27,196 nt of DNA from Deltaproteobacteria bacterium (GTDB lineage: Bacteria > Desulfobacterota > DSM-4660 > Desulfatiglandales > HGW-15). Shown here piece after piece: positions 1,009-27,038 of this stretch; the first letter of the stretch is position 1, and every line of letters begins with the position of its first letter. A model generated the notes under the pieces. That model saw only the letters and a program-made list of their open reading frames with translations. It did not search any database and was not told where the DNA came from. The position numbers and the translations under genes were made by a program. The stretch is from positions 1 to 27,196 of the forward strand of contig JAFDIC010000015.1 in the NCBI GenBank assembly GCA_019308525.1, read 5' to 3'.

Positions 1009-2304
1009 TCAGTGCTTGAATGCCCGCTGGCCCGTGAACACCATGGTCACCTTTGGATCCGCCTCGTTACAGGCCTGGATGGATTCAAAGTCCCTCAGCG
1101 ATCCTCCGGGCTGGACAATGGCCCTTATTCCCTCCTTTATAGCCACATCCACGCCGTCCCTGAAAGGGAAAAACGCGTCGGAGACCATGGTTGCACCAAC
1201 AAGGCCACCCTTTGCCTCCTTTGTTTCCCTGTCTATCTCTTGTATCAACCCCTTCTCTTTTTCTCCCTTCTTCACCAGGAGTTCCAGGTCTTTGTACCCC
1301 ATCCCGTGTCTCCTGAAACAGAGCGCATCCGCATACTTGGTATAGGCCTTGAATATCGCTATCTCGGCAACACCCACCCGGTCCTGCTCGCCTGTGCCGA
1401 TTCCCACGGTCACCCCGTCCTTGACGTAGATGACAGAGTTTGAAGTAATCCCTTGCTCCACCTGCCAGCCAAAGAGCATGTCCTCGTACTCCTCCTCCGT
1501 AGGTTCCCTCTCGATCCTGTATGCCCTTCCCTTGTATTCAGCGCTGGCGAGGGTGAAATCCTCCTTGGACCTGATCCGGTTGAGTGGAGATTGTTGAACT
1601 ATTATTCCCCCGTCTATCAGGCTCTTGAAGTCCACGAACCGTGCTTCCCTGTAAGATGAAAGGTCCTCAATCCTGCTTATCCTGATGATCCGGAGGTTTG
1701 CCCTCTTTGCCAGGATCGGGATCGTGCCCTCTTCGAAATCCGGGGCGGCAACCACCTCCAGGTAATTCTCCGAAATCATCTCGGCCGTGCCCCTGTCTAC
1801 GGGTTGATTAAAGAGGGCGCAACCACCAAAGGCCGCGATACGGTCTGCCATATTTGCCCGCTGGTAGGCCTCGGCTAGGTCTGATCCATAGGCCACTCCG
1901 CAAGGATTGTTGTGCTTCACTATGACCACGGCAGGCTTCCTGCTGAGATATCTCATAATATTGAGGGAGTTATCGATATCCGTCAGGTTGATCTTTCCGG
2001 GGTGCTTACCGCTCTGGATCATATCCTCCTCGGTTATGGCCGAAACAAGCCCCCTTTTGGGCTCAATGAACTGGCATCCCCCCAGGAGCAGGTTGCCGTT
2101 TACCAGCTCGTAGAGAGCGGCCTCCTGCCCCGGGTTTTCACCATAACGAAGCCCTTTCTCTATGTACTCGCCGCTCTTTTCGTCTCTGATCTTCCAAGCC
2201 CTCTTTCTGTAGATCAGGGTCTGGTCACCAAAGGAGACCCTCATCTCCTGTGGGAAGTGGTCATCCATGACCGTCCTGTACATCTTTTTCAAATCATCAC
2301 TCAT
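1009..2304 (-). CDS. purH: Stand-alone AICAR transformylase (PurH C-terminal domain)
   Basis: This 431-residue protein corresponds to the formyltransferase half of bifunctional PurH. It transfers a formyl group from 10-formyl-tetrahydrofolate to AICAR in the penultimate step of IMP synthesis. Visible motifs are LRYGENPGQ (52-60), the catalytic KHNNPCG (130-136), SDAFFPFRDGVD near the end and the typical C-terminus FTGQRAFKH. The N-terminal IMP cyclohydrolase domain is absent and not encoded nearby, so the ring-closure enzyme must lie elsewhere. Such split arrangements are known in anaerobic bacteria and archaea. An upstream in-frame start at 2397 exists, but the ATG at 2304 is preceded by TTGGAGGACGTTC, a Shine-Dalgarno site at the right spacing, and begins the conserved sequence, so I chose it. 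It lies 123 bp downstream of folE2 on the same strand; both relate to folate and one-carbon metabolism. Some authors call stand-alone versions PurV. Confidence 0.9.
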   Translation of the reverse strand: MSDDLKKMYRTVMDDHFPQEMRVSFGDQTLIYRKRAWKIRDEKSGEYIEKGLRYGENPGQEAALYELVNGNLLLGGCQFIEPKRGLVSAITEEDMIQSGKHPGKINLTDIDNSLNIMRYLSRKPAVVIVKHNNPCGVAYGSDLAEAYQRANMADRIAAFGGCALFNQPVDRGTAEMISENYLEVVAAPDFEEGTIPILAKRANLRIIRISRIEDLSSYREARFVDFKSLIDGGIIVQQSPLNRIRSKEDFTLASAEYKGRAYRIEREPTEEEYEDMLFGWQVEQGITSNSVIYVKDGVTVGIGTGEQDRVGVAEIAIFKAYTKYADALCFRRHGMGYKDLELLVKKGEKEKGLIQEIDRETKEAKGGLVGATMVSDAFFPFRDGVDVAIKEGIRAIVQPGGSLRDFESIQACNEADPKVTMVFTGQRAFKH

Positions 2305-2427
2305 GAACGTCCTCCAAAATATTCCACGATAGGTGCAAGGCAGAAGGGCAAAGGAAGAGCTTGCTCCTGGGCTGAATAATTTCCCCAATGCAGGCAATTC
2401 AAACCATTCTCTCTTCCGAAGCGTCTC

Positions 2428-12155: not shown

Positions 12156-12185
12156 TTGACATCGGTCCTAATTTGGTACTATAAA
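12156..12185 (+). promoter_or_regulatory. Sigma-70 promoter of the Phd/ParE module
   Basis: TTGACA (12156-12161), an 18-nt spacer and TATAAA (12180-12185) form a near-consensus promoter 18 nt before the antitoxin ATG. The short leader contains GGAGGTGATCAA, a very strong Shine-Dalgarno sequence. Confidence 0.7.
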
Positions 12186-12203
12186 GAAACTGGAGGTGAT
12201 CAA

Positions 12204-12485
12204 ATGAACATATCACAAGACATTAAGTCAATTACTTATCTCAAGGCAAGGGCAGCTGACTTGTTGAAGCAAATCAATGAAACCCGTCGCCCTGTCATTA
12301 TTACTCAAAACGGGGAACCCAGGGCTATTCTCCAGGACCCTGAGAGCTATGAGAATATGCGGAACGCTATCGGTATCCTTAAGCTGATCTCACAAGGTGA
12401 AGAGGAGATAGGAAGAGGAAGTTCCAAATCCCAGGAGGAGGTATTTGAGAGCATTGAGGACCTGTTGAAAGACAAAAGGAAATGA
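12204..12485 (+). CDS. Phd/YefM-type antitoxin of the ParE toxin
   Basis: The 93-residue protein contains SITYLKARAADLLKQINETR, then PVIITQNGEPRAILQDPESYE, the standard Phd/YefM N-terminal domain (residues 8-52). The acidic C-terminal tail (GEEEIGRGSSKSQEEVFESIEDLLK) would bind the toxin. The in-frame ATG at 12156 lies inside the promoter, so the ATG at 12204, preceded by GGAGGTGATCAA, is chosen. The stop overlaps the toxin start in an ATGA, which shows translational coupling. It probably represses its own promoter. Confidence 0.9.
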   Translation: MNISQDIKSITYLKARAADLLKQINETRRPVIITQNGEPRAILQDPESYENMRNAIGILKLISQGEEEIGRGSSKSQEEVFESIEDLLKDKRK

Positions 12486-16155: not shown

Positions 16156-16429
16156 CTGGTGATAGAGAATAGATCTATGAGACGATCCCGGGAAGGGATA
16201 GAAAACCCGCGTGTAAGGATCCTGCCTCTTGAACGACTCACCTACCAGAATGGGCCTGTAGAGACCTGCAAAGGGAAGCGCCATCTCAGCGAGGAGACAA
16301 ATATGCAGTGTTAATTCTCAGGAAATAGGAGTTTTACCCCATTCATTTCACGGGTTTTTCGGGGTACCTTTTGGCAGGGATACTGAAAAGAGAAAATGAA
16401 TCCCGGGGCCCATGGGAAGGAGAAAAGAA

Positions 16430-17199
16430 ATGTTCAACAGGAGAAATTACATAGTATCAATCACGTTGTTCGTGGCCCTTGTCCTGGCTTCAACCGACCA
16501 TCTCGGTAGGGCAGAAATGGGAAACACCATAGATCACGGTCTTTACGGCCAACTACTCAAGAGATATGTCGGGAGTAATGGAGAAGTTGACTACGGGGGG
16601 TTCAAAGCTGAGGAGGCCAAGCTTGATGGATACCTGAAAATATTGGAAGAGGTGGATACAAGGACCCTTGACCGGAATGAGCAACTGGCCTTTTACATAA
16701 ATGCCTACAATGCCTGGACCATAAAACTGATACTGGGCGCATACCCCGGAGTTGAATCCATCAAGGAACTGGGAGTTTCCTGAAAAGCCCCTGGAAGAAA
16801 AAAATAGCCAGGATCGAGGGCCGCGTGTTGAGCCTTGACAATATTGAGCATGATATCATCAGGCCTCGCTTCAGGGACCCCCGCATTCATTTCGCTGTGA
16901 ACTGCGCTTCGAAAAGCTGTCCCCCGCTCCGATCAGAACCCTATCGAGGCAAGGACCTGGAGCGGCAACTGGATGAGATGACCAAGGCCTTCATCAATGA
17001 CCAATCGAAGAACTATCTAAAAGGAGATACCCTTTACGCAAGCAGTATCTTCAAGTGGTATTCGGAGGACTTTCATGATGATGTGGTCTCGTTCTTCCTG
17101 AAATATGGACAAGGAGACCTCAAGAGGCGACTGAGCACTGCCAGGGGAAAGATAGGGGTGAAGTACGTGGACTATGATTGGACTTTAAACGGAAAGTGA
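16430..17199 (+). pseudogene. DUF547 secreted protein, interrupted by a 1-nt frameshift
   Basis: The first frame (from ATG 16430, with AAGGAG 7 nt upstream) has a signal peptide (MFNRRNYIVSITLFVALVLA). It then shows the DUF547 start YVGSNGEVDYGGFKA and LAFYINAYNAWTIKLIL, and stops at TGA 16781-16783 just after IKELGVS. The rest continues in the -1 frame from about 16774 as SFLKSPWKKKIARIEGRVLS, then LDNIEHDIIRPRFRDPRIHF, AVNCASKSCPPL and IFKWYSEDF, ending at 17199. One extra G in the run at 16771-16773 would restore ELG-SFLKSPWKKK exactly, so a single-base deletion or sequencing error is the simplest cause. No slippery site for programmed frameshifting is apparent. DUF547 proteins are often found beside mercuric-reductase-like genes, as here (23-bp gap). 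Function is unknown. Confidence 0.85.
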
Positions 17200-17222: not shown

Positions 17223-18677
17223 GTGGCGAAATACGACTACGACATAGGCGTCATAGGCGCCGGAGCAGCGGGCCTGACCGTAGCTGCCGGAGCTGCCCAG
17301 CTCGGGGCAAAGACCCTCCTGGTAGAAAAGGAGCGGGCCCTTGGTGGCGATTGCCTCCATTTTGGCTGTGTTCCCAGCAAGACCCTGATCAAGACCGCAC
17401 ATGTTTATTACCTCATGAAGAGCACCAGGGATTTCGGCCTCCCTGCCATAGACCCTCCCCCGGTGAACTACCAGGATGTGGTAAGGAGGATTCGTTCGGT
17501 CATAGAAGCGATCCAGGAACACGATTCCGAGGAGAGGTTTTGTTCCCTGGGTGCCAAGGTTGTCTTTGGCATCCCGAGATTTGTGGATGAACATTCCATA
17601 GAGGTGAACAGCGATGCCCTTTCTGCAAAGACATGGGTAATCGCCACCGGTTCTTCTCCATCTATACCTCCCATAGAAGGTCTGGACAGTACTTCCTATA
17701 TCACGAACAAGGAGATTTTTTCCCTCGACCACCTGCCAGAGTCCATGATTATCCTGGGAGCGGGACCCATCGCAACCGAAATGGCGCAGGCGTTTTCCAG
17801 GCTGGGTTCGCAGGTGGACGTCATCCAGAGGAGCGGGCAGATCCTCAGCCGCGAGGACAAGGATATGGCGGACGATGTGATGATGGTCCTTGCCGGGGAG
17901 GGTGTACGGTTCCATCTGAACTCAACGGTGGTTTCGACGAGGGACGAGGGGAGGAAAAGGCAGGTAGTCTTCAAGGATCACCAGGGCAAGGAGAAGGTGG
18001 TCAGCGCCGAGGCGATCCTCGTTGCCATGGGCAGGGTCCCCAACCTGGAAGGCCTTGACCTAGACAAGATAGGGGTGGAGACCAGCAGGAAGGGGATCCG
18101 GGTCGATACAAGGCTCAGGACGACCCAGAAGCACATATACGCCGCCGGCGATGTTACAGGGGCATACCAGTTTACCCATGCAGCGGGATATGAGGGAGGC
18201 ATTGTCATCAGCAACGCTATTTTCCACCTGCCACGGAAGGCCAATTACACTTTTATGCCCTGGTGCACTTACACTGATCCGGAGCTCTCAAGCATAGGTA
18301 TGAATGAGAAGCGTGCCCGTGAGGCCAATATCGACTACTCCCTGTGGACGGAGGAGTTCAAGGATAACGACCGCAGTCAGGCAGAGGGGGAGAGGATCGG
18401 CAGGATCAAGATGATACTGGATGAGAAAGAAAAGCCCTTGGGTGTGCAGATCCTGGGCCCCAGGGCGGGAGAACTGCTCAGCGAGTGGGTGGCGGTATTG
18501 AACGGTAAGGTAAAGCTCTCAACCCTCGCCTCTGCGGTGCACCCTTACCCGACACTGGGGGAGGTCAACAAGCGCGTTGCCGGCAAGTATTTTTCCCCGA
18601 AGATATTCTCTGACAGGGTGAAGAAGGGTCTCAAGTTTTTCTTCCACCTCAAGGGAAGGGCATGCGAGACCCAGTAG
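17223..18677 (+). CDS. Mercuric-reductase-like FAD/NAD(P) disulfide oxidoreductase
   Basis: The 484-residue protein is a class I pyridine nucleotide-disulfide oxidoreductase. It has the FAD motif GAGAAGL (12-18), the redox-active pair Cys44/Cys49 in GGDCLHFGCVPSKT, the NAD(P) motif ILGAGPIATEMA, the second FAD motif AAGDVTG, and a C-terminal interface domain with HPYPTLGE. It lacks the terminal Cys pair of true MerA and the HPTxSE end of dihydrolipoamide dehydrogenase, so mercury reduction is not implied. This subgroup is common beside DUF547 and TVP38-like genes. The frame is open from a TTG at 17178, inside DUF547, but the GTG at 17223 has GGAGGAG 6 nt upstream and begins the conserved sequence. 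The natural electron acceptor is unknown. The pentose-phosphate genes follow closely. Confidence 0.88.
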   Translation: MAKYDYDIGVIGAGAAGLTVAAGAAQLGAKTLLVEKERALGGDCLHFGCVPSKTLIKTAHVYYLMKSTRDFGLPAIDPPPVNYQDVVRRIRSVIEAIQEHDSEERFCSLGAKVVFGIPRFVDEHSIEVNSDALSAKTWVIATGSSPSIPPIEGLDSTSYITNKEIFSLDHLPESMIILGAGPIATEMAQAFSRLGSQVDVIQRSGQILSREDKDMADDVMMVLAGEGVRFHLNSTVVSTRDEGRKRQVVFKDHQGKEKVVSAEAILVAMGRVPNLEGLDLDKIGVETSRKGIRVDTRLRTTQKHIYAAGDVTGAYQFTHAAGYEGGIVISNAIFHLPRKANYTFMPWCTYTDPELSSIGMNEKRAREANIDYSLWTEEFKDNDRSQAEGERIGRIKMILDEKEKPLGVQILGPRAGELLSEWVAVLNGKVKLSTLASAVHPYPTLGEVNKRVAGKYFSPKIFSDRVKKGLKFFFHLKGRACETQ

Positions 18678-18718
18678 GGAGATGCCGGTGGAGAGAATTC
18701 CGCAAAGGAGGTGTTTGG

Positions 18719-19630
18719 ATGCAGGTAGCAATGGTGGGACTGGGGCGGATGGGCATGAACATGGCCAGGAGGTTGTTGAGGGACGGTCACGAAGTCGTTG
18801 CCTATAACAGGTCACCGAGAAGGACGGAAGAAGTAGTGAAAGAGGGGGCCGTGGGTGCCTTCTCCCTTGAGGAGGTGGTCGAGAAGCTGTCAACACCACG
18901 TGCGGTGTGGTTCATGCTTCCCGCCGGACCTACGGTGGATGAATACATTCAGGGATTCAAGGGCCTCCTCTCGCCGGGTGACATTGTCATCGACGGGGGA
19001 AACACCCATTACAAGGATGATCTTGCTCGATCCAGATCCCTTGAAGAAAAGGAGATCCGGTTCATGGATGTGGGTGTAAGCGGGGGGATCTGGGGCCTGG
19101 AGGCAGGTTATTGTCTCATGATAGGGGGTGAGAAGAAGATCTTTGACCATCTCGAACCCCTGTTCAAGACCCTCGCACCGGAAGAAGGCTATTTGTACTG
19201 TGGCCCGGTTGGAAGCGGTCACTTCGTTAAGATGGTTCACAATGGAATTGAGTATGGAATGATGCAGGCCTACGCAGAGGGATTCGATGTCCTTGAGGCT
19301 TCTCCCTATGCCCACTTTCTCGATTATGCCGACCTTGCACACCTGTGGAACAGGGGAAGCGTAATTCGCTCATGGCTCCTTGAGCTCGCCGAGACCGCGT
19401 TCAGAAGAGACGGCAGGCTTTCGGAGATAAGGGGATACGTGGAGGATTCAGGAGAAGGGAGGTGGATGGTCAAGCAGGCGGTTGAGACCGGCGTATCCAC
19501 GCCTGTCATAGCCCTGTCCCTCATGCAGAGGTTCAGGTCGAGAAAGGAGGACACCTTTTCTGACAAGGTGCTTGCCGCCCTGCGAAAGGAGTTTGGAGGG
19601 CACAGGGTCGTAAGGGTGGTAAAGGAGTAA
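18719..19630 (+). CDS. gnd: 6-phosphogluconate dehydrogenase, decarboxylating (short form)
   Basis: The 303-residue enzyme oxidises 6-phosphogluconate to ribulose-5-phosphate and CO2. It has the dinucleotide motif GLGRMG (7-12), VIDGGNTHYKDD near 91-102, the substrate loop FMDVGVSGGIWGLEAGYCLM, and the catalytic segment GPVGSGHFVKMVHNGIEYGM with its Lys and Asn. Its length fits the short, dimeric-type Gnd (about 300) and not the 470-residue form. The ATG at 18719 follows AAAGGAGG at good spacing. It opens the oxidative pentose-phosphate gene run and lies 41 bp behind the flavoprotein gene. Short Gnd enzymes are often NAD-dependent, which I cannot confirm here. Confidence 0.93.
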   Translation: MQVAMVGLGRMGMNMARRLLRDGHEVVAYNRSPRRTEEVVKEGAVGAFSLEEVVEKLSTPRAVWFMLPAGPTVDEYIQGFKGLLSPGDIVIDGGNTHYKDDLARSRSLEEKEIRFMDVGVSGGIWGLEAGYCLMIGGEKKIFDHLEPLFKTLAPEEGYLYCGPVGSGHFVKMVHNGIEYGMMQAYAEGFDVLEASPYAHFLDYADLAHLWNRGSVIRSWLLELAETAFRRDGRLSEIRGYVEDSGEGRWMVKQAVETGVSTPVIALSLMQRFRSRKEDTFSDKVLAALRKEFGGHRVVRVVKE

Positions 19631-19727
19631 GGATGGCTGCCTCGGGGCAACAGAGATAGATGCTAGGCTATTTATCCACGAGGGGATTCAGGCATGGCTA
19701 AAGCCATAGGGGAGAAAAGGAGCAGTG

Positions 19728-21311
19728 ATGAAAAACAGCACCGAAGCAAGAGGAGACATCATCGCAACCAGGGCCATTACAAGGACGGATGATACCGGCA
19801 TTCCCGCTGAGCCCTGCCTGAGAGAAAAGGAAGCGGAGCCCTGTGATATTGTAATACTGGGTGCTTCCGGGGATCTTACTTCCAGGAAGCTGATGCCCGC
19901 CCTGTACAATCTCTTTGACAAGGGGGCGATCGGGACACCCTTTTTCATACTGGGTTGTGGAAGAAGCCAACTGACAGACGAGGAATTCAGAAAGAGGATG
20001 AAAGGGGCCGTACTTGATCACAGGACGGGGAACGGATCGAAGTGGGATTCCTTTGCATCATCCATCTTCTACCAGCCGCTCCAGTATGATGATGAAGCCT
20101 CCTTCAAGGCCCTGGCCCGCAGGCTGAAGGAACTGGACAGGAGGTTCAAGACAGAGGGTAACCGTATCTTCTACCTTGCAATTCCACCTTCCCTTTACGG
20201 TTGCAGTGCCGAGATGCTCGGAAGGGTGGGCCTGTCGAGGGAGAAGGAAGGCGGCAATGGGTGGACGAGGATAGTCGTGGAAAAACCCTTTGGCCGGGAT
20301 CTTGGTACGGCTATTGAACTGGACAGGTCTCTGCAGGAGTCATTTGAAGAAGACCAGATTTTCCGGATCGATCATTACCTTGCCAAGGAGACGGTTCAGA
20401 ATATATTGGTATTCCGGTTTGCCAACTCGATTTTCGAGCCTGTCTGGAACAGGAGATACATCGACTATATCGACATAACAGCGGCTGAGACCCTGGGGGT
20501 GGAACACCGGGCGGGGTACTACGAGGAAGCAGGAGTCCTGAGGGATGTGTTCCAGAACCACATGATGCAGTTACTTGCTCTGACTGCCATGGAACCACCA
20601 TCCCTGTTTGAAGCGGATCGTGTGCGTGACGAAAAGGCCAAGGTATACCGCTCCCTCAGACCCTTTCCCGTCCAGAGGGTCCAGGACTACCTGGTCTTGG
20701 GACAGTATATTGCCGGGACCATGGACGGAAAAAGGGTGGCCGGCTATCGAGAGGAACCGGGAGTCAAGGCAGACTCCCTCACCCCAACCTATGCCATGAT
20801 GAAGGTCTACCTGGATAACTGGCGCTGGCAGGGTGTCCCCTTTTACCTCATGTCAGGAAAGAGGCTGGCCAAGAAAAAGACGGAGATAGCGATACAGTTC
20901 AAGGAAGTTCCCCACTCCATGTTCCGCGTCATACTTGGAGAACATATATCCGCTAATCGTCTCATACTGGGCATCTATCCGGATGAAAGAATAACCCTGA
21001 CCTTTCAGACAAAGAGTCCGGGGACAAGGGTCTGCCTGCGCACGGTGACCATGGACTTCTTTTACCACCTGGGCTACGAAGGCCCTCTGCTGGACGCCTA
21101 TGAAAAATTACTCCTGGACTGTATGGAGGGCGACCGCATGCTGTTTCTTCGGCAGGACAGCGTGGAGCTTTGCTGGGCTTTCTTGACCCCGATACTCGAA
21201 GAATGTGAAAGCTGCGCCAACCGGGAGAGGAGGCTGTTTTTTTATGAACCTGGGAGCTGGGGGCCTGTGAAGGCTGAAGAGTTAAGGGGACAACACGCAT
21301 GTGATTTATAG
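19728..21311 (+). CDS. zwf: Glucose-6-phosphate 1-dehydrogenase
   Basis: The 527-residue enzyme oxidises glucose-6-phosphate to 6-phosphogluconolactone. Motifs are the dinucleotide loop GASGDLTSRKL (45-55), VVEKPFG (about 183-189) and the substrate-binding RIDHYLAKE (213-221) with the catalytic His further on. The C-terminal beta-sheet domain (VYLDNWRWQGVPFYLMSGKRLAKKKTEIAIQFK) is complete. The N-terminal 38 residues before the Rossmann fold are a little longer than usual. ATG 19728 is 5 nt behind AAAGGAG; the GTG at 19725 is an alternative. It is 97 bp behind gnd and 20 bp before the AhpD-like gene, all on one strand. Confidence 0.96.
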   Translation: MKNSTEARGDIIATRAITRTDDTGIPAEPCLREKEAEPCDIVILGASGDLTSRKLMPALYNLFDKGAIGTPFFILGCGRSQLTDEEFRKRMKGAVLDHRTGNGSKWDSFASSIFYQPLQYDDEASFKALARRLKELDRRFKTEGNRIFYLAIPPSLYGCSAEMLGRVGLSREKEGGNGWTRIVVEKPFGRDLGTAIELDRSLQESFEEDQIFRIDHYLAKETVQNILVFRFANSIFEPVWNRRYIDYIDITAAETLGVEHRAGYYEEAGVLRDVFQNHMMQLLALTAMEPPSLFEADRVRDEKAKVYRSLRPFPVQRVQDYLVLGQYIAGTMDGKRVAGYREEPGVKADSLTPTYAMMKVYLDNWRWQGVPFYLMSGKRLAKKKTEIAIQFKEVPHSMFRVILGEHISANRLILGIYPDERITLTFQTKSPGTRVCLRTVTMDFFYHLGYEGPLLDAYEKLLLDCMEGDRMLFLRQDSVELCWAFLTPILEECESCANRERRLFFYEPGSWGPVKAEELRGQHACDL

Positions 21312-21331
21312 AATGAAAGGAGGTATGGCTG

Positions 21332-21664
21332 ATGGAGACATATTACAAACCCGAGGATCTTCCCAAGTTCGAGGAGATCGGTAAAGAGGCCCAGGAACTT
21401 GCAAGGAAATTCTTTGATTACTACGGCGCGGTCTTTGCCGAGGGGGAACTGACAGAGAGGGAAAAGGCGCTCATCGCCCTTTCCGTTGCTCATGCAATCC
21501 AGTGCCCCTATTGTATCGACGCATTTACAAAGGCATGCCTCGAGAAGGGATCAAACCTTGCGGAGATGACAGAGGCCGTGCATGTAGTGACCGCTATCAG
21601 GGGCGGGGCTTCACTAGTACACGGAATACAGATGAGGAATGTTGCCGAAAAGGTGTCAATGTAA
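21332..21664 (+). CDS. AhpD-like protein, arsenosugar-associated peroxidase type
   Basis: The 110-residue protein belongs to the carboxymuconolactone decarboxylase/AhpD superfamily. It has LTEREKALIALSVAHAIQCP, with Cys58 and Cys61 in CPYC, and the flanking Glu and His of the AhpD proton-relay site, then a second helix with IRGGASLVHGIQM. A family of this length and start (METYYKPEDLPKF) is regularly found next to ArsS-type radical SAM genes and is named an arsenosugar-biosynthesis-associated peroxidase-like protein in current annotation. The direct neighbour here is such a radical SAM gene, so the assignment is supported by context. The reaction is unproven. An AAAGGAGG sequence ends 11 nt before the ATG. 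Confidence 0.85.
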   Translation: METYYKPEDLPKFEEIGKEAQELARKFFDYYGAVFAEGELTEREKALIALSVAHAIQCPYCIDAFTKACLEKGSNLAEMTEAVHVVTAIRGGASLVHGIQMRNVAEKVSM

Positions 21665-21766
21665 GGACCTCGGAAGAACATGACTCGGCTCTACCGAGGA
21701 GCCGGGAGATTGAACGCAGGGCCCTGGACCAAGGGACAAAAAGGGATGAAAAGGGGAGGAAAGGAA

Positions 21767-22786
21767 ATGCATCCCAAGAAATCATTGGAAAAGACGGGCG
21801 AGTTTGAGAGGGAGGGCCACCCTTCCAGGGACATGGAGCCCTTCTCCCAGACCCTGGCCAGGCATTCGCTGAGGCTTTCGAGGGAAGAGACCACCACGCT
21901 TCAGATAAACGTCGGGCTCCTTTGTAACCAGGCCTGCCGCCACTGCCACCTGGAAGCGGGGCCGGACAGGAGAGAAATCATGCCTTGGAAGACGGCCCAG
22001 GACGTGGTGGCCTATGCTGAGAGGAGCGGGTTTGAGGTCGTGGACATAACCGGCGGGGCACCGGAACTGAATCCGAACATCCACGAGCTTATCGAGGGAC
22101 TGTCACCCCTGACGCCCAGACTCATGTTTCGTTCCAACCTCTTAGCCCGAAACAACGAAAACAGGGAGGGTCTTTTGCACCTGCTAAGAGACCGCGGGGT
22201 GGTCATAGTGGCGTCCTTTCCCAGCTTGAACGAATCCCAGACAGATTCCCAGAGGGGTGAGGGCGTGTTTTCCAGGTCAGTCAGGGCGCTCCAGAGACTC
22301 AACAAGATGGGATACGGGAATAAGGAGACGGGCCTTGAACTCGACCTGGTATCCAATCCCACCGGCGCCTTTTTGCCTGAATCACAGAAGGAGACCGAAA
22401 GACGATTCAGGCAGGTATTGGAGAAAAGGTGGGGGATAGTCTTCAACAACCTTTACAGTTTCGCTAACGTGCCCCTGGGAAGATTTCGGAAGTGGTTATC
22501 CGATTCCGGGAACCTTGACGCCTATATTGAGAAGCTTTCATCCGGCTTCAATCCTTGCGCCATCGAAGGACTTATGTGCAAGACCCTGGTTTCGGTTTCG
22601 TGGGACGGGTACCTGTACGATTGTGATTTCAACCTTGCAAGGGGTCTCTATCTTGGAAACACAAGGATCCATGTCTCTGAGATGCCCGGTCCCCCGGAGC
22701 CCGGGAGTCCCATTGCCGTGGCGGACCACTGTTACACGTGCACTGCCGGGGCGGGTTTCACATGAGGCGGGGCCATCCAGACCTGA
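21767..22786 (+). CDS. arsS: ArsS-type radical SAM protein, probable selenoprotein (Sec at 22763)
   Basis: The protein has a radical SAM cluster motif CNQACRHCH (Cys53, 57, 60) and DITGGAPELNPN. Its C-terminal Cys-rich DUF3641-like domain contains NPCAIEGLMCKTLVSVSWDG, YDCDFN and HCYTCTAGAG. This is the ArsS family, which makes dimethylarsinoyl-deoxyadenosine in arsenosugar synthesis. Members end in CxxCxAGxGSS(C/U)GG. Here the frame meets TGA at 22763-22765 exactly at the C/U position (GAG-F-T-TGA-G-G), and reading through adds U-G-G-A-I-Q-T before a TGA at 22784. With Sec the length is 339 residues; without it 332 and the motif is lost. A short hairpin at SECIS distance follows. The start is ATG 21767 (GGAGG 7 nt before); an upstream ATG at 21680 has no conserved sequence. 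No Sec machinery or ArsM lies in the window. Confidence 0.85.
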
Positions 22787-22800
22787 GTTCAGGCAACACC
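22766..22800 (+). promoter_or_regulatory. Candidate bacterial SECIS element
   Basis: Just after the in-frame TGA, CCTG (22782-22785) pairs with CAGG (22790-22793) around the loop AGTT. The loop has G in its second position followed by T, as in the G-U loop read by SelB, and begins 20 nt after the TGA. The stem is short (4 bp, or 5 if the A-T pair closes), and the lower stem is not clear by eye. The real stop TGA at 22784-22786 lies within the hairpin. Confidence 0.5.
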
Positions 22801-22819
22801 AACTTCAAGGAGACCGTAG

Positions 22820-23542
22820 ATGTCATATGGGGGGCCTTTGCATATTATTGTGAAAGAAAACGCGGCAGAGGTTGCAAAGGCCGGGGCCGAACTGTTTATC
22901 AATGCCGGCAGGGAGTCCATAAGGGATTCCGGGGCGTTTCGGGTTGCCCTCTCGGGGGGGGCGACTCCAAGACAGATGTACAGGCTGCTGGCCGAGGATG
23001 GCTTTTCATCCCAGGTGCCCTGGGAGAAGACGCACCTTTTTTGGGTGGATGAGCGTTGCGTCCCCGTGGAAGATGAAAGAAGCAACTACGGAGCAGCAAA
23101 GCGGGATCTCCTGGATAGGGTCCCAATCCCCGCAGAGAACGTTCACAGGATGCCGGCCGAGCTGCCGCCCGAAGAAGGGGCGAGGAAATATCAGGCAATT
23201 CTTGAAGAGATCCTTCCCTTGAACCAGGAGGGGTTTGCGGTGTTTGACCTGGTCTTCCTTGGGACGGGAAAGGACGGGCACACGGCTTCCCTGTTTCCAG
23301 GCCAATCGACCCTTCAAGAGGAGAGGAGGATGGTGGTGACGGCAAGGGGTGGTGAGCCGGATGTGGACCGCCTGACTTTGACCTTGCCTGTCATAAAAAT
23401 CATCCGCGAGATATTCCAAGGTGACGGTCTTGGGCTTCCAGCCAAGAAGGTCGCTCCCAGGCAGGGAAGGCTTACCTGGCTGCTGGACCGGGAGGCGGCA
23501 GCCCTTGTCCTTTCAAAGGAAAACAATGGCAAAGACATGTAG
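22820..23542 (+). CDS. pgl: 6-phosphogluconolactonase, with an apparent internal deletion
   Basis: The 240-residue protein matches the DevB/Pgl family that hydrolyses 6-phosphogluconolactone. It has ALSGGATPRQMYRLLAE, WEKTHLFWVDERCVPVEDER, SNYGAAKRDLL, LVFLGTGKDGHTASLFPG and the end LPAKKVAPRQGRLTWLLDREAA. Family members normally have, after the LTLPVI strand, a stretch like NxAxxVxFLVxGxxKA before the helix leading to LPAxxV. Here LTLPVI joins directly to KIIREIF (near 23395), so about 18-20 residues, including a core strand, are missing in frame. Activity may be impaired or lost. AAGGAG lies 7 nt before the ATG. It follows arsS by 33 bp, and its end overlaps the glucokinase remnant. Confidence 0.85.
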   Translation: MSYGGPLHIIVKENAAEVAKAGAELFINAGRESIRDSGAFRVALSGGATPRQMYRLLAEDGFSSQVPWEKTHLFWVDERCVPVEDERSNYGAAKRDLLDRVPIPAENVHRMPAELPPEEGARKYQAILEEILPLNQEGFAVFDLVFLGTGKDGHTASLFPGQSTLQEERRMVVTARGGEPDVDRLTLTLPVIKIIREIFQGDGLGLPAKKVAPRQGRLTWLLDREAAALVLSKENNGKDM

Positions 23543-23648
23543 GGAAGATCTTGTACTGGCCGGCGACATCGGAGGGACGAAGACCAGGCTCGGAATCTTT
23601 GCGCCCGGGAAAGGGCCGAGAATATGTCGAAACTTCATGAGCTATTGA
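23526..23648 (+). pseudogene. glk: Glucokinase N-terminal remnant
   Basis: The frame starts at ATG 23526, with AAAGGA 5 nt upstream and a 17-nt overlap with pgl. It encodes EDLVLAGDIGGTKTRLGIF, the phosphate-binding DIGGTKTRLG motif of bacterial glucokinases. After about 33 codons (APGKGPR) the homology ends, the frame reads into the transaldolase start and stops at 23648. A normal glucokinase has 310-350 residues, so about 90% is deleted. The intact start and ribosome-binding site show that this was once a coupled operon gene. Confidence 0.85.
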
Positions 23649-23818
23649 AATTGGGACAATCCGTTTGGTACGACTATATTCGCAGATCGTTTATGCAGTC
23701 GGGTGAACTCCAGGCCCTGATGGCCCACGGGTCGATGGGTGTTACATCCAACCCCACCATTTTTCACAGGGCAATAGTGGGGAGCGCTGACTATGATCAA
23801 GAAAGGTGGACCAGATGA
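23624..23818 (+). pseudogene. tal: Transaldolase N-terminal remnant
   Basis: ATG 23624 opens a 64-codon frame. It encodes LLKLGQSVWYDYIRRSFMQS, then GELQALMAHGSMGVTSNPTIF and IVGSADYDQ, the well-known N-terminus of long-type transaldolases. It stops after ERWTR, well before the Schiff-base Lys, so it cannot be active. In related bacteria this transaldolase is fused to glucose-6-phosphate isomerase in one protein of about 950 residues. Here about 300 codons of transaldolase are gone, the junction is out of frame, and the isomerase half has a start of its own. Confidence 0.85.
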
Positions 23819-25542
23819 AGATGGGAAACAGGAGATATCAGTTCGCACTTGGAGGATTTGAGGCCGAGGTTGGTGAGGGGATGAAGAAGATGCGCCAGGA
23901 AAGGGTAATGTCCAGGATCTGGGCCCACGATCACACCCTCTGGAAGGATGACCCTGCTGAGATCGCCAATCGCCTGGGCTGGCTCCATAGCCCCGAGACA
24001 ATGGTGGAAGCGATCCCAGGGCTAATGCAATTCGTGGAAGGGATCAAGGGGCAGGGTTACACCCGGGCCCTCCTCCTGGGAATGGGCGGATCAAGCCTGG
24101 CCCCTGAGATGTTCAGTCGCATCTTTGGAGCTGAAGAGGGCTACCTGGACCTGTTCGTCCTGGACAGCACGGATCCAGGGGCCGTACTAGCGGCGGAACG
24201 GAGACATGATCCTCGAAGGACCCTCTACATTGTTTCTACCAAATCAGGCGGGACCATCGAGACCCTCTCCTTCATGAAATATTTCTACAACAGGGCAAAG
24301 GATGCGCTGGGGGAGGAAGGTGCGGGGGCTCACTTCATAGCGATCACCGATCCGGGGAGCAGCCTCCAGTCCATGGCGGAAAGGCTCGGGTTCTGCAGGG
24401 TCTTTTTGAACGACCCGAATATCGGCGGGCGTTACTCTGCCCTGTCCTATTTCGGTCTGGTCCCGGCAGCCCTTATGGGCCGTGACCTGGCGGTGCTCCT
24501 TGAAAGGGCGGGCACCATGGCTCGTAACAGCGAAGGGCCCAAGTCCCCTGTGAGGGGAAACAACTCCTCGGCCCTCCTGGGTGCTGCAATGGGGGAGCTG
24601 GCGAACAGGGGACTGGACAAGCTCACCCTGGTTACATCCCCCGGGATATCAGCCTTCGGCGCGTGGGTGGAGCAATTGATAGCTGAGAGCACGGGAAAGG
24701 AAGGAAAGGGTATCTTGCCTGTTCAGGGTGAAGACTTGAAAGAGCCTCAATTCTATTCCAGGGACAGGGTCTTTGCCTACCTCAGGCTGGATGGGGATAG
24801 TACCCATGACACCAAGATAGAAGCCCTCCGCAAGGCAGGATTTCCCGTCTTTGAGTTCAACTTGAAGGATCCCTATGATATTGGCGGAGAGTGCTTCAGG
24901 TGGGAAATGGCTACTGCGGTAGCCGGGTGGTTCCTGGGAATCAATCCCTTTGATCAGCCCAACGTGGAATCGGCCAAGGTGCTGGCCCGGAAAATGGTCG
25001 AGACTTACATCAGGGAAGGACGATTGCCGGAACCGGAGCCGGCCATCGAGGCAGCCGACCTCATGGTATACTCTGATTTCCCAGCCAGAAGTCCCGAAGA
25101 GGCCCTTGAAAAGTTCTTGTCCCTGGCACGTCAGGGTGAAGATGGCTTCAGGGGCAGGAGCTACGTTGCCATACAGGCTTTTATTGCGCCGGGAGAAGAG
25201 ACTGATTCCTTGCTCCAGGACCTTCGTACGTCTATCCAGACTGCTGAGCGCTTGGCAACCACCGTGGGATACGGCCCCCGCTTCCTCCATTCCACGGGGC
25301 AACTCCACAAAGGGGATGGGGGCCGGGGCCTGTTTATCCAGATTACGGCCGACATACCGGTTGATCTGCCGATTCCCGATGAGGCGGGGAGTGAGAAGTC
25401 ATCCATCAGCTTTGGAGTGCTCAAGATGGCACAGGCCCTGGGTGACCGCCAGGCCCTGCTGGATGCGGGGCGAAGGGTGATTCGATTCCATTTCAGGGAC
25501 AAAGACGCGGGATTAGAGAGACTGGCACGGGCCTTGGGATGA
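23815..25542 (+). CDS. pgi: Glucose-6-phosphate isomerase (former half of a Tal-Pgi fusion)
   Basis: The 575-residue protein interconverts glucose-6-phosphate and fructose-6-phosphate. It starts with the linker-like MKMGNRRYQFALGGFEAEVG and RIWAHDHTLWKDDPAEIANRLGWL known from bifunctional transaldolase/Pgi proteins. The isomerase core follows: LLLGMGGSSLAPEMF, VSTKSGGTIETLSFMKYF, GRYSALSYFGLVPAALMG, and GAWVEQLIAESTGKEGKGILP with the catalytic Glu. No core segment seems missing. ATG 23815 is placed behind AAAGGTGG; GTG 23806 and ATG 23821 are alternatives. It seems to have become a separate protein by deletion of most of the transaldolase part. rpiA follows after 21 bp. Confidence 0.9.
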   Translation: MKMGNRRYQFALGGFEAEVGEGMKKMRQERVMSRIWAHDHTLWKDDPAEIANRLGWLHSPETMVEAIPGLMQFVEGIKGQGYTRALLLGMGGSSLAPEMFSRIFGAEEGYLDLFVLDSTDPGAVLAAERRHDPRRTLYIVSTKSGGTIETLSFMKYFYNRAKDALGEEGAGAHFIAITDPGSSLQSMAERLGFCRVFLNDPNIGGRYSALSYFGLVPAALMGRDLAVLLERAGTMARNSEGPKSPVRGNNSSALLGAAMGELANRGLDKLTLVTSPGISAFGAWVEQLIAESTGKEGKGILPVQGEDLKEPQFYSRDRVFAYLRLDGDSTHDTKIEALRKAGFPVFEFNLKDPYDIGGECFRWEMATAVAGWFLGINPFDQPNVESAKVLARKMVETYIREGRLPEPEPAIEAADLMVYSDFPARSPEEALEKFLSLARQGEDGFRGRSYVAIQAFIAPGEETDSLLQDLRTSIQTAERLATTVGYGPRFLHSTGQLHKGDGGRGLFIQITADIPVDLPIPDEAGSEKSSISFGVLKMAQALGDRQALLDAGRRVIRFHFRDKDAGLERLARALG

Positions 25543-25563
25543 TGAGCAGAGAAGGAGAGGTAG

Positions 25564-26304
25564 ATGGACGAGAGGTCATTGCTGAAGGAGAGGGCAGCCA
25601 GAAAGGCTGTTGAGTTCATTGAGTCGGGCATGGTCGTTGGGCTTGGCACGGGAAGCACCGTGCGTTACGCCCTCGACCGCCTCGGGGAAAAGATAAGGGC
25701 GGGGGAATTGAAGGACATCGTGGGCATACCCAGCTCCAGGGACACGGAAAAGAGGGCCAGGGAAGCAGGAATTCCCCTGACGACATTAGAGGAATGCAGG
25801 ATAATCGATATTACTATTGACGGGGCGGACGAGGTGGACCCCTCCTTGAACCTCATAAAGGGGGGTGGCGGCGCCCTGCTACGTGAGAAGGTGATAGCCC
25901 AGACAAGCCGAAGGACCGTCATCATGGTGGACGAGAGCAAGATGTCTCCCTGTATCGGGACCCTGTGGCACCTGCCTGTCGAAGTTATTCCCTTTGCCTG
26001 GCCGGTAGAGAAGGCCTTTATCGAGACCCTGGGCGCCGGTGTGACCCTCCGAAAGGCAGGCGATGAAAGAACATTTGAGACGGACCAGGGAAACTACATC
26101 CTTGATTGCAGGTTCGGCCCTATCAAGGAAGCAGAAAAACTGGCCCTTGAACTTTGCAAGAGGGCGGGTATCGTGGAACACGGGCTCTTCTTGGGGCTTG
26201 CCTCGGACGTCGTGGTGGCCGGCAAGGATGGCATCCGTCACCTCAAAAAGGGAGATTTGGGCGGCACCCCATTTTTTTCGCGGAAGGTTTCAAAGGGCAA
26301 TTGA
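25564..26304 (+). CDS. rpiA: Ribose-5-phosphate isomerase A
   Basis: The 246-residue enzyme converts ribulose-5-phosphate to ribose-5-phosphate. Signatures are VGLGTGSTVRY (25-35), the catalytic DGADEVD (86-92) and LIKGGGGALLREK (97-109), which binds the sugar phosphate. Length is slightly above the usual 220-230 because of a short C-terminal extension (KKGDLGGTPFFSRKVSKGN). GGAGAGGTAG precedes the ATG. It is the last gene of the pentose-phosphate run; no terminator with a T-run is visible in the following 90 bp. Confidence 0.95.
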   Translation: MDERSLLKERAARKAVEFIESGMVVGLGTGSTVRYALDRLGEKIRAGELKDIVGIPSSRDTEKRAREAGIPLTTLEECRIIDITIDGADEVDPSLNLIKGGGGALLREKVIAQTSRRTVIMVDESKMSPCIGTLWHLPVEVIPFAWPVEKAFIETLGAGVTLRKAGDERTFETDQGNYILDCRFGPIKEAEKLALELCKRAGIVEHGLFLGLASDVVVAGKDGIRHLKKGDLGGTPFFSRKVSKGN

Positions 26305-26432: not shown

Positions 26433-26454
26433 ATAAGATTCAGGAGGCATGGTT

Positions 26455-26709
26455 ATGCAAAACAATAATATTGAATTGCAAATTGGAAAATGGGGCAATT
26501 CCCTTGGGATAAGGCTCCCTAAGCACATTTCAGAGGCTCTTCACTTGAAGCCAAAGGACAAGGTAAGTTGTGCCATTGAAAACGGAAAATTGGTTCTAAG
26601 GCCAGTACGTCTGGTCAAAAAGTATACACTTAAAGAATTGTTAGCCAAAGCAGAAGAACCCAGCGAAGAAATATCATGGGGCAAGCCTGAAGGAGAAGAA
26701 GTTTGGTAG
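26455..26709 (+). CDS. mazE: MazE-type antitoxin (AbrB fold)
   Basis: The 84-residue protein opens with IELQIGKWGNSLGIRLPKHI followed by LKPKDKVSCAIENGKLVLRP, the swapped-hairpin AbrB/MazE DNA-binding domain (residues 6-52). The acidic C-terminal tail (KAEEPSEEISWGKPEGEEVW) fits the segment that blocks MazF. ATG 26455 lies 7 nt behind AGGAGG; ATG 26449 is too close. It overlaps the toxin start by 7 nt. Confidence 0.93.
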   Translation: MQNNNIELQIGKWGNSLGIRLPKHISEALHLKPKDKVSCAIENGKLVLRPVRLVKKYTLKELLAKAEEPSEEISWGKPEGEEVW

Positions 26710-27038
26710 ACTACATCCCCAAACGTGGAGATTTTATCCGTCTCAATTTTCACCCACAAGCTGGGCATGAACAAACGGGGAGCAGACCTGCCTTAGTCTT
26801 AAGCCACACTTCATTTAATAGAAAGATGGGATTTGTTTTTGTTTGTCCCATAAGCACCACTAGACGCAAAAATCCATTTTATGTGCCGATTCCCGAATCT
26901 GAGAAAGTGACGGGAATAATAATGGCAGATCAACTACGATCACTTGATTATAGGGCGAGAAAAGCGGTCTTCATTAGCAAGTGCCCTGAGGTATTACTTC
27001 AAGAAGTCTTAATGCATGTAGAACCAATTTTGTTTTGA
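26703..27038 (+). CDS. mazF: MazF-type mRNA interferase toxin
   Basis: The 111-residue protein matches MazF: YIPKRGDFIRLNFHPQAGHE, then QTGSRPALVLSHTSFN with the Arg and Ser/Thr of the active site, VFVCPISTTRR, and VPIPESEKVTGIIMADQLRSLDYRAR ending the fold. MazF cleaves mRNA at short specific sequences. The start is a TTG at 26703, preceded by GGAG at 7-nt spacing and inside the end of mazE; no ATG exists at the N-terminus, and VDYIPKRGD is the expected family start. A rare start codon for the toxin favours excess antitoxin. The gene appears intact. Confidence 0.93.
   Translation: MVDYIPKRGDFIRLNFHPQAGHEQTGSRPALVLSHTSFNRKMGFVFVCPISTTRRKNPFYVPIPESEKVTGIIMADQLRSLDYRARKAVFISKCPEVLLQEVLMHVEPILF

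Follow-up and report, generated by a model that had tools for sequence, protein, structure and literature searches.

A predicted selenocysteine codon near the end of an arsS-type radical SAM gene, with the putative stop codon inside its candidate SECIS hairpin

Introduction

Where does a gene end when two in-frame TGA codons follow each other closely, and does the first of them mean stop or selenocysteine (Sec)? This question is raised by a locus in a stretch of 27,196 nt (hereafter, the window; contig JAFDIC010000015.1 of assembly GCA_019308525.1, from a Deltaproteobacteria bacterium), where HCYTCTAGAGFT directly precedes the in-frame TGA at 22763-22765, followed by six codons for GGAIQT and by a second TGA at 22784-22786. 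The reading that we hold to be very probable is that of an ArsS-type radical SAM enzyme with one Sec near its C-terminus, UGA 22763 being decoded by means of a SECIS element and the second UGA serving as the stop. What points to it is comparison with relatives, which bears on the position of the codon, the exchange between Cys and Sec, the coding character of the extension, a hairpin common to the family and the sel genes of the relatives' genomes; Sec insertion in the window's own organism is what we infer. The features at issue, all on the forward strand, are the following:

21332..21664, + strand: gene for an arsenosugar biosynthesis-associated peroxidase-like protein (TIGR04169, 187.3 bits, cut-off 120)
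21767..22786, + strand: predicted arsS-type selenoprotein gene (TIGR04167, 364.5 bits; 339 residues, of which Sec would be the 333rd)
22763..22765, + strand: TGA predicted to be read as selenocysteine (79 readable places, 62 with TGA and 17 with Cys)
22766..22783, + strand: six codons, GGAIQT, from the putative Sec to the probable true stop (coding-type substitution pattern in 56 sequences, ratio 0.195)
22784..22786, + strand: probable true stop codon TGA, within the candidate SECIS hairpin (T and G paired, A the first base of the loop)
22782..22793, + strand: candidate apical SECIS hairpin CCTG-AGTT-CAGG (marginally within published bSECIS limits; covariation in the family)

The gene, its product and its surroundings

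The arsS product matches TIGR04167, whose NCBI name is arsenosugar biosynthesis radical SAM (seleno)protein ArsS, above the cut-off of 300 curated by NCBI and over positions 2-297 of the 303 in the profile, and it also contains PF04055 (Radical_SAM) and PF12345 (DUF3641), both above their cut-offs. Its translation includes CNQACRHC, which we take to be the radical SAM CxxxCxxC motif, and the C-terminal motif CxxCxAGxG..(C/U)GG appears in the window as CYTCTAGAGFT-U-GG. In arsenosugar biosynthesis a radical SAM enzyme adenosylates arsenic, according to a passage of PMC12159101 that cites Cheng et al. 2021; this passage, together with the family name, is the basis on which arsenic adenosylation is predicted as the function of the window's ArsS.

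The start of the gene is probably ATG 21767, since a protein with 87% identity (P0003) runs for 332 residues from an initial MHPR to GFT; the frame is open already from ATG 21680, further upstream. As for the other end, among the best 120 of 8000 protein matches (the window's own included) all stop one codon before the Sec, 118 of them ending in AGxGFx and two in SGxGFT. These ends could be taken in favour of an ordinary stop, according to which the enzyme would finish at ...AGAGFT and the motif behind the TGA would be the leftover of a Sec- or Cys-containing ancestor, a reading to which we give very little credit; standard gene calling yields exactly such ends, and the database proteins are its product. 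It had been claimed from the sequence that gene calling would shorten the protein by seven residues and that the codons right behind the TGA encode the conserved GG, and both points are borne out: read-through adds U and the six residues GGAIQT, which lie before the stop at 22784.

The gene for the TIGR04169 protein is located upstream of arsS and is, judging from a tblastn relative somewhere in 73 of the best 80 loci, a frequent neighbour of ArsS. Both genes lie within a pentose-phosphate set (18662-26304) in the order gnd-like, zwf, [TIGR04169, arsS], pgl, pgi-like and rpiA; relatives of gnd, zwf and pgl were seen in 6, 9 and 6 of the best 80 loci, many of which are short. Elsewhere, the window encodes a PurH-like protein (1009-2397, reverse strand) whose match to the PurH model is confined to the C-terminal part (206-511 of 511), a MazE/PemK-like toxin-antitoxin pair (26449-27038) and a Phd/YefM-type antitoxin (12156-12485). 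In addition, a DUF547 gene (16412-17199) changes frame at about 16770-16790; its two halves share a frame in all 10 loci in which both were found. A recent mutation or an error in a single base is the likely cause.

Selenocysteine and cysteine among relatives

A contig scan confirmed at least 580 relatives, the best 80 loci of which were kept, giving 81 places together with the window. At the position of interest 62 of these have TGA and 17 have Cys, and the remaining two (L049 and L061, as concluded from match ends and lengths) run off their contig before the motif. The motif was read by script in 77 places, namely 60 with TGA (the window included) and 17 with TGC or TGT, while L021 and L047 have a deviating motif that the script pattern missed and are both of the TGA type by eye. 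The placement of TGA 22763 at the family's Cys/Sec position, as proposed in the preliminary description, thus agrees with the 79 readable places. Behind the TGA, all 62 TGA-type places hold a short peptide, mostly GG[AS]I.., so that homologs ending at the same codon without the extension, which the same description had named as a case against its own proposal, are absent from these 62 places (window included). In the 17 Cys-type homologs, 11 of them from Bacteroidota and six from other lineages, the Cys codon is followed by GG (16) or AG (1).

Is FT ahead of the codon, in place of SS, an anomaly of the window, as was first thought? The counts say otherwise: FT precedes the TGA in 59 of the 60 script-tallied TGA-type sequences and FS in one, which makes FT the normal form with Sec, and ahead of the Cys there are 12 SS, four FT and one FS.

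These comparisons also bear on two other explanations. An original Cys codon (TGC or TGT) could have been turned into TGA by a mistake in sequencing or assembly, and the frame break in the DUF547 gene does indicate that single-base errors or mutations may occur on this contig; yet TGA occupies the same codon in 61 other loci and the window has the AGTT hairpin at 20 nt, a trait of the TGA-type genes that is mostly absent from the Cys-type ones, which leaves an error with a minimal probability. Equally improbable is an organism-wide reassignment of UGA to Trp (or another residue), in favour of which nothing was found: relatives without the TGA have Cys there, not Trp, and the second TGA closes the frame after 18 nt, with codons behind it that vary almost freely. 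These two points, the Cys homologs and the second TGA, led to its rejection.

Regarding the history of the exchange, a tree of 76 rows was built (L067, too short, and L021, L047, L049 and L061 were left out), on which five switches between Sec and Cys are required, no fewer than four of them forced by well-supported branches, with bootstrap values that are not quite settled. The window groups with the Sec forms and falls into no well-supported subset of them. Since selB is present in genomes with the Sec form as well as in genomes with the Cys form, the exchange between the two in an arsenic enzyme offers natural material on what Sec does in ArsS. Two of the MAGs carry two Sec-type arsS genes each (L025 with L037 and L009 with L014; records JACRDE01 and JAUVVS01), where mixed bins are possible because the contigs of the second MAG differ in coverage (86 and 289).

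Sec machinery in the relatives' genomes

Would the organisms carrying these genes be able to insert Sec? Through 37 of the best 80 loci, 37 genomes were reached and searched for selB and tRNA-Sec, together with 14 control genomes. Matches to selB above the cut-off were found in 25 of the 37 (20 of 22 with the TGA type, five of six non-Bacteroidota with the Cys type and none of nine Bacteroidota, which have the Cys form) and in two of the 14 controls; only such matches were used, since weaker ones occur in all 37 genomes and all 14 controls. For tRNA-Sec, matches above the gathering score of 47 were obtained in 22 of the 37 genomes and five of the 14 controls. Two weak ones were not counted (G002, with 50.3 bits and 77 nt, and G036, from Bacteroidota, with 49.3 bits), and at 71 bits or more there are 20 genomes: 14 of 22 of the TGA type, six of six of the non-Bacteroidota Cys type and none of nine Bacteroidota. 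The two TGA-type genomes with no selB above the cut-off (G008 and G011) have a full-length tRNA-Sec at 75-76 bits, and selB or tRNA-Sec was found in all 22 of the TGA-type genomes searched. Misses of tRNA-Sec are no proof of absence, given that 85 candidates were scored per genome and that most genomes are MAGs. Outside Bacteroidota the residue cannot be told from the Sec genes, because the Cys form occurs there in Sec-capable genomes.

Coding character of the codons behind the TGA

In the 56 sequences compared over the six codons behind the first TGA (L025, L046, L050 and L057, with longer extensions, were left out), pairwise single-base differences amount to 3045 synonymous and 1495 non-synonymous, and the possible changes in the same codons to 861 and 2163, respectively, which gives a ratio of 0.195; only single-base codon differences were counted, multi-base ones being left out, and the pairwise comparisons are not independent. 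The pattern argues that the codons behind TGA 22763 evolve as coding sequence. In the sixth codon the third base hardly varies, which fits its position in the hairpin stem. This synonymous bias, along with the compensatory changes in the family hairpin described below, stands against an ordinary stop at 22763, as does the retention in the window itself of GGAIQT, the loop AGTT and the 20-nt spacing.

The candidate SECIS hairpin

The hairpin with loop AGTT that the preliminary description had noticed behind the TGA is present, formed by CCTG (22782-22785), the loop (22786-22789) and CAGG (22790-22793), with 20 nt from TGA 22763 to the loop and 16 nt to the stem, and both position and hairpin recur across the family. 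The bacterial SECIS (bSECIS) model, in the portions of PMC13188914 consulted here, comprises a loop of 3-9 nt, a stem of 4-16 bp, a distance from UGA to loop of 16-37 nt, a G among the first two loop bases, with G or U next in most cases, and an energy of at most -7.5 kcal/mol. The window passes marginally, with a stem of 4 bp, the loop AGTT, a spacing of 20 and -7.9 kcal/mol over 43 nt. The same limits are passed by 48 of 60 TGA-type sequences (12 fail), by four of 17 Cys-type sequences and by 38 of 165 other TGA frame ends, these being the ends of open frames of at least 200 codons on the + strand of the loci and the window, and hence of candidate genes only.

On its own, the 4-bp hairpin of the window is weak and no better than chance, a point in favour of the ordinary stop. 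Its score is equalled in 15 of 100 shuffles; for the 18-nt hairpin, 16 of 200 shuffles fold as well, and for longer stretches 140 to 171 of 200 do, and in a fold of 40 nt the hairpin lies outside the best structure. Since the folding of the single sequence does not set the window apart from shuffles, the case rests on the family. A search of 22680-22900 against Rfam at a permissive threshold gave no family up to E = 5, which says little for a bacterial SECIS.

At the level of the family, the mean hairpin score is 9.2 for the TGA type (n=60) versus 5.4 for its shuffles, and 3.9 for the Cys type (n=17) versus 4.6. Base pairing was evaluated in 51 sequences, leaving out nine with a TAG stop or a longer extension (L025, L037, L046, L050, L053, L054, L057, L058 and L059). 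In them, pair 4 is formed in 49 (as C-G, T-A or G-C) and pair 5 in 40 (as A-T, G-C, G-T or T-A), with none of 2000 shuffles as good for either; the loop length (4 or 5) was picked per sequence for best pairing, a step that the shuffles lack, and the shuffles ignore kinship among the sequences. Pairs 4 and 5 display compensatory changes, both sides varying. The signal is weaker at pairs 6 and 7 (equalled by 23 and nine of 2000 shuffles) and absent at pairs 8 to 10 in the 51 sequences, and the three innermost pairs hardly vary in them and are uninformative for covariation. Pair 5 of the window is A-C, and is unpaired.

A separate observation concerns a Cys-type arsS from a Syntrophobacteraceae MAG (L063, 5931-5985), which retains, where the SECIS would lie, a hairpin of 5 bp (AGACC/GGTCT); it is perhaps the relic of a former Sec gene.

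The second TGA as the true stop

The true stop in the 60 TGA-type sequences is TGA in 52, TAG in eight and TAA in none. Among 273 further long frames in these loci the counts are 134 TGA, 55 TAG and 84 TAA, so that TGA is in excess at the true stop (Fisher p = 4e-8 when relatedness is ignored). In the set with six-codon extensions (n=56; 51 TGA and five TAG) the stop is situated at one common place. Among the 51 TGA-stop sequences of the pairing set, the T and the G of this stop are both base-paired within the apical stem, a feature that would account for the lack of TAA. L025 differs, its stop being situated behind the hairpin region.

Could the second TGA be a further Sec codon? This was rejected; within the 600 bases covered per locus, 58 of 60 loci have a third stop, at a distance of 3 to 130 codons downstream of the second. 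Codons 11 to 13 behind the first TGA are near-random, with an entropy of 1.85 to 1.98 out of 2 bits. Genes of the Cys type finish at a similar point, by TAA, TAG or TGA. The second TGA is therefore a stop, as the codons behind it soon vary almost freely and the Cys forms end nearby.

Taken as a mechanism, UGA 22763 would be decoded by tRNA-Sec and SelB with the aid of the short SECIS hairpin and its AGUU loop 20 nt downstream, and the ribosome would next, presumably in this order, open the hairpin and terminate normally at the second UGA within it. The Sec would take the place of the Cys of the C-terminal CxxCxAGxG(FT/SS)(U/C)GG motif, where either residue might hold the arsenic substrate or serve redox turnover while the adenosyl group is transferred to arsenic. 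A further idea, which we consider unlikely, is that in this family the termination codon is built into the SECIS: two codons, usually both UGA, 18 nt apart and with opposite meanings, of which the second lies, L025 being at least one exception, within the hairpin that recodes the first. SelB, while bound there, would hide the genuine stop up to the insertion of Sec, thus coupling Sec insertion and termination, for example through a SelB-dependent delay of release. A literature search on SECIS and termination codons returned nothing to the point by title, and was too narrow to claim absence. In any case, a stop codon inside a SECIS is a small, testable point about recoding.

Comparison with known systems

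How much of this is new? In the literature search, TIGR04167 was found in two reviews, and no paper was found joining ArsS with selenocysteine and radical SAM, or arsenosugar biosynthesis with selenoprotein; DUF3641 was not found in the papers among the matches listed. The family is already tabled, in the portions of PMC13188914 and PMC9312934 consulted, as a predicted selenoprotein, 'Radical SAM domain protein', with GxxU and the accession AAR34688.1. What the finding adds is the correction of one gene end and a view of how regularly standard gene calling cuts the ArsS family.

The nearest named relatives among the best 80 loci come from Desulfobacterales or Deltaproteobacteria, with at most 69% identity. 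The Cys-type ArsS proteins share with the window the family and the CxxCxAGxG..C motif, but differ in having a Cys codon, in the SS that precedes it in 12 of 17 and in a hairpin score that is not above that of shuffles. When compared with the bSECIS in what PMC13188914 gives of it, the window is alike in its 4-nt loop with G second and then U, its 4-bp stem and its 20 nt from the UGA, and differs in that the stem is at the lower limit and that the gene's own stop codon would form part of the hairpin. With respect to TIGR04167 (rSAM_SeCys, ArsS), as far as these sources describe it, the window is alike in family, in the C-terminal G-F-T-U (that is, GxxU) and in the neighbouring TIGR04169, and differs in nothing essential. 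The arsS of the window is accordingly a new member of a known selenoprotein family, for which the claim of being selenoproteins has already been published.
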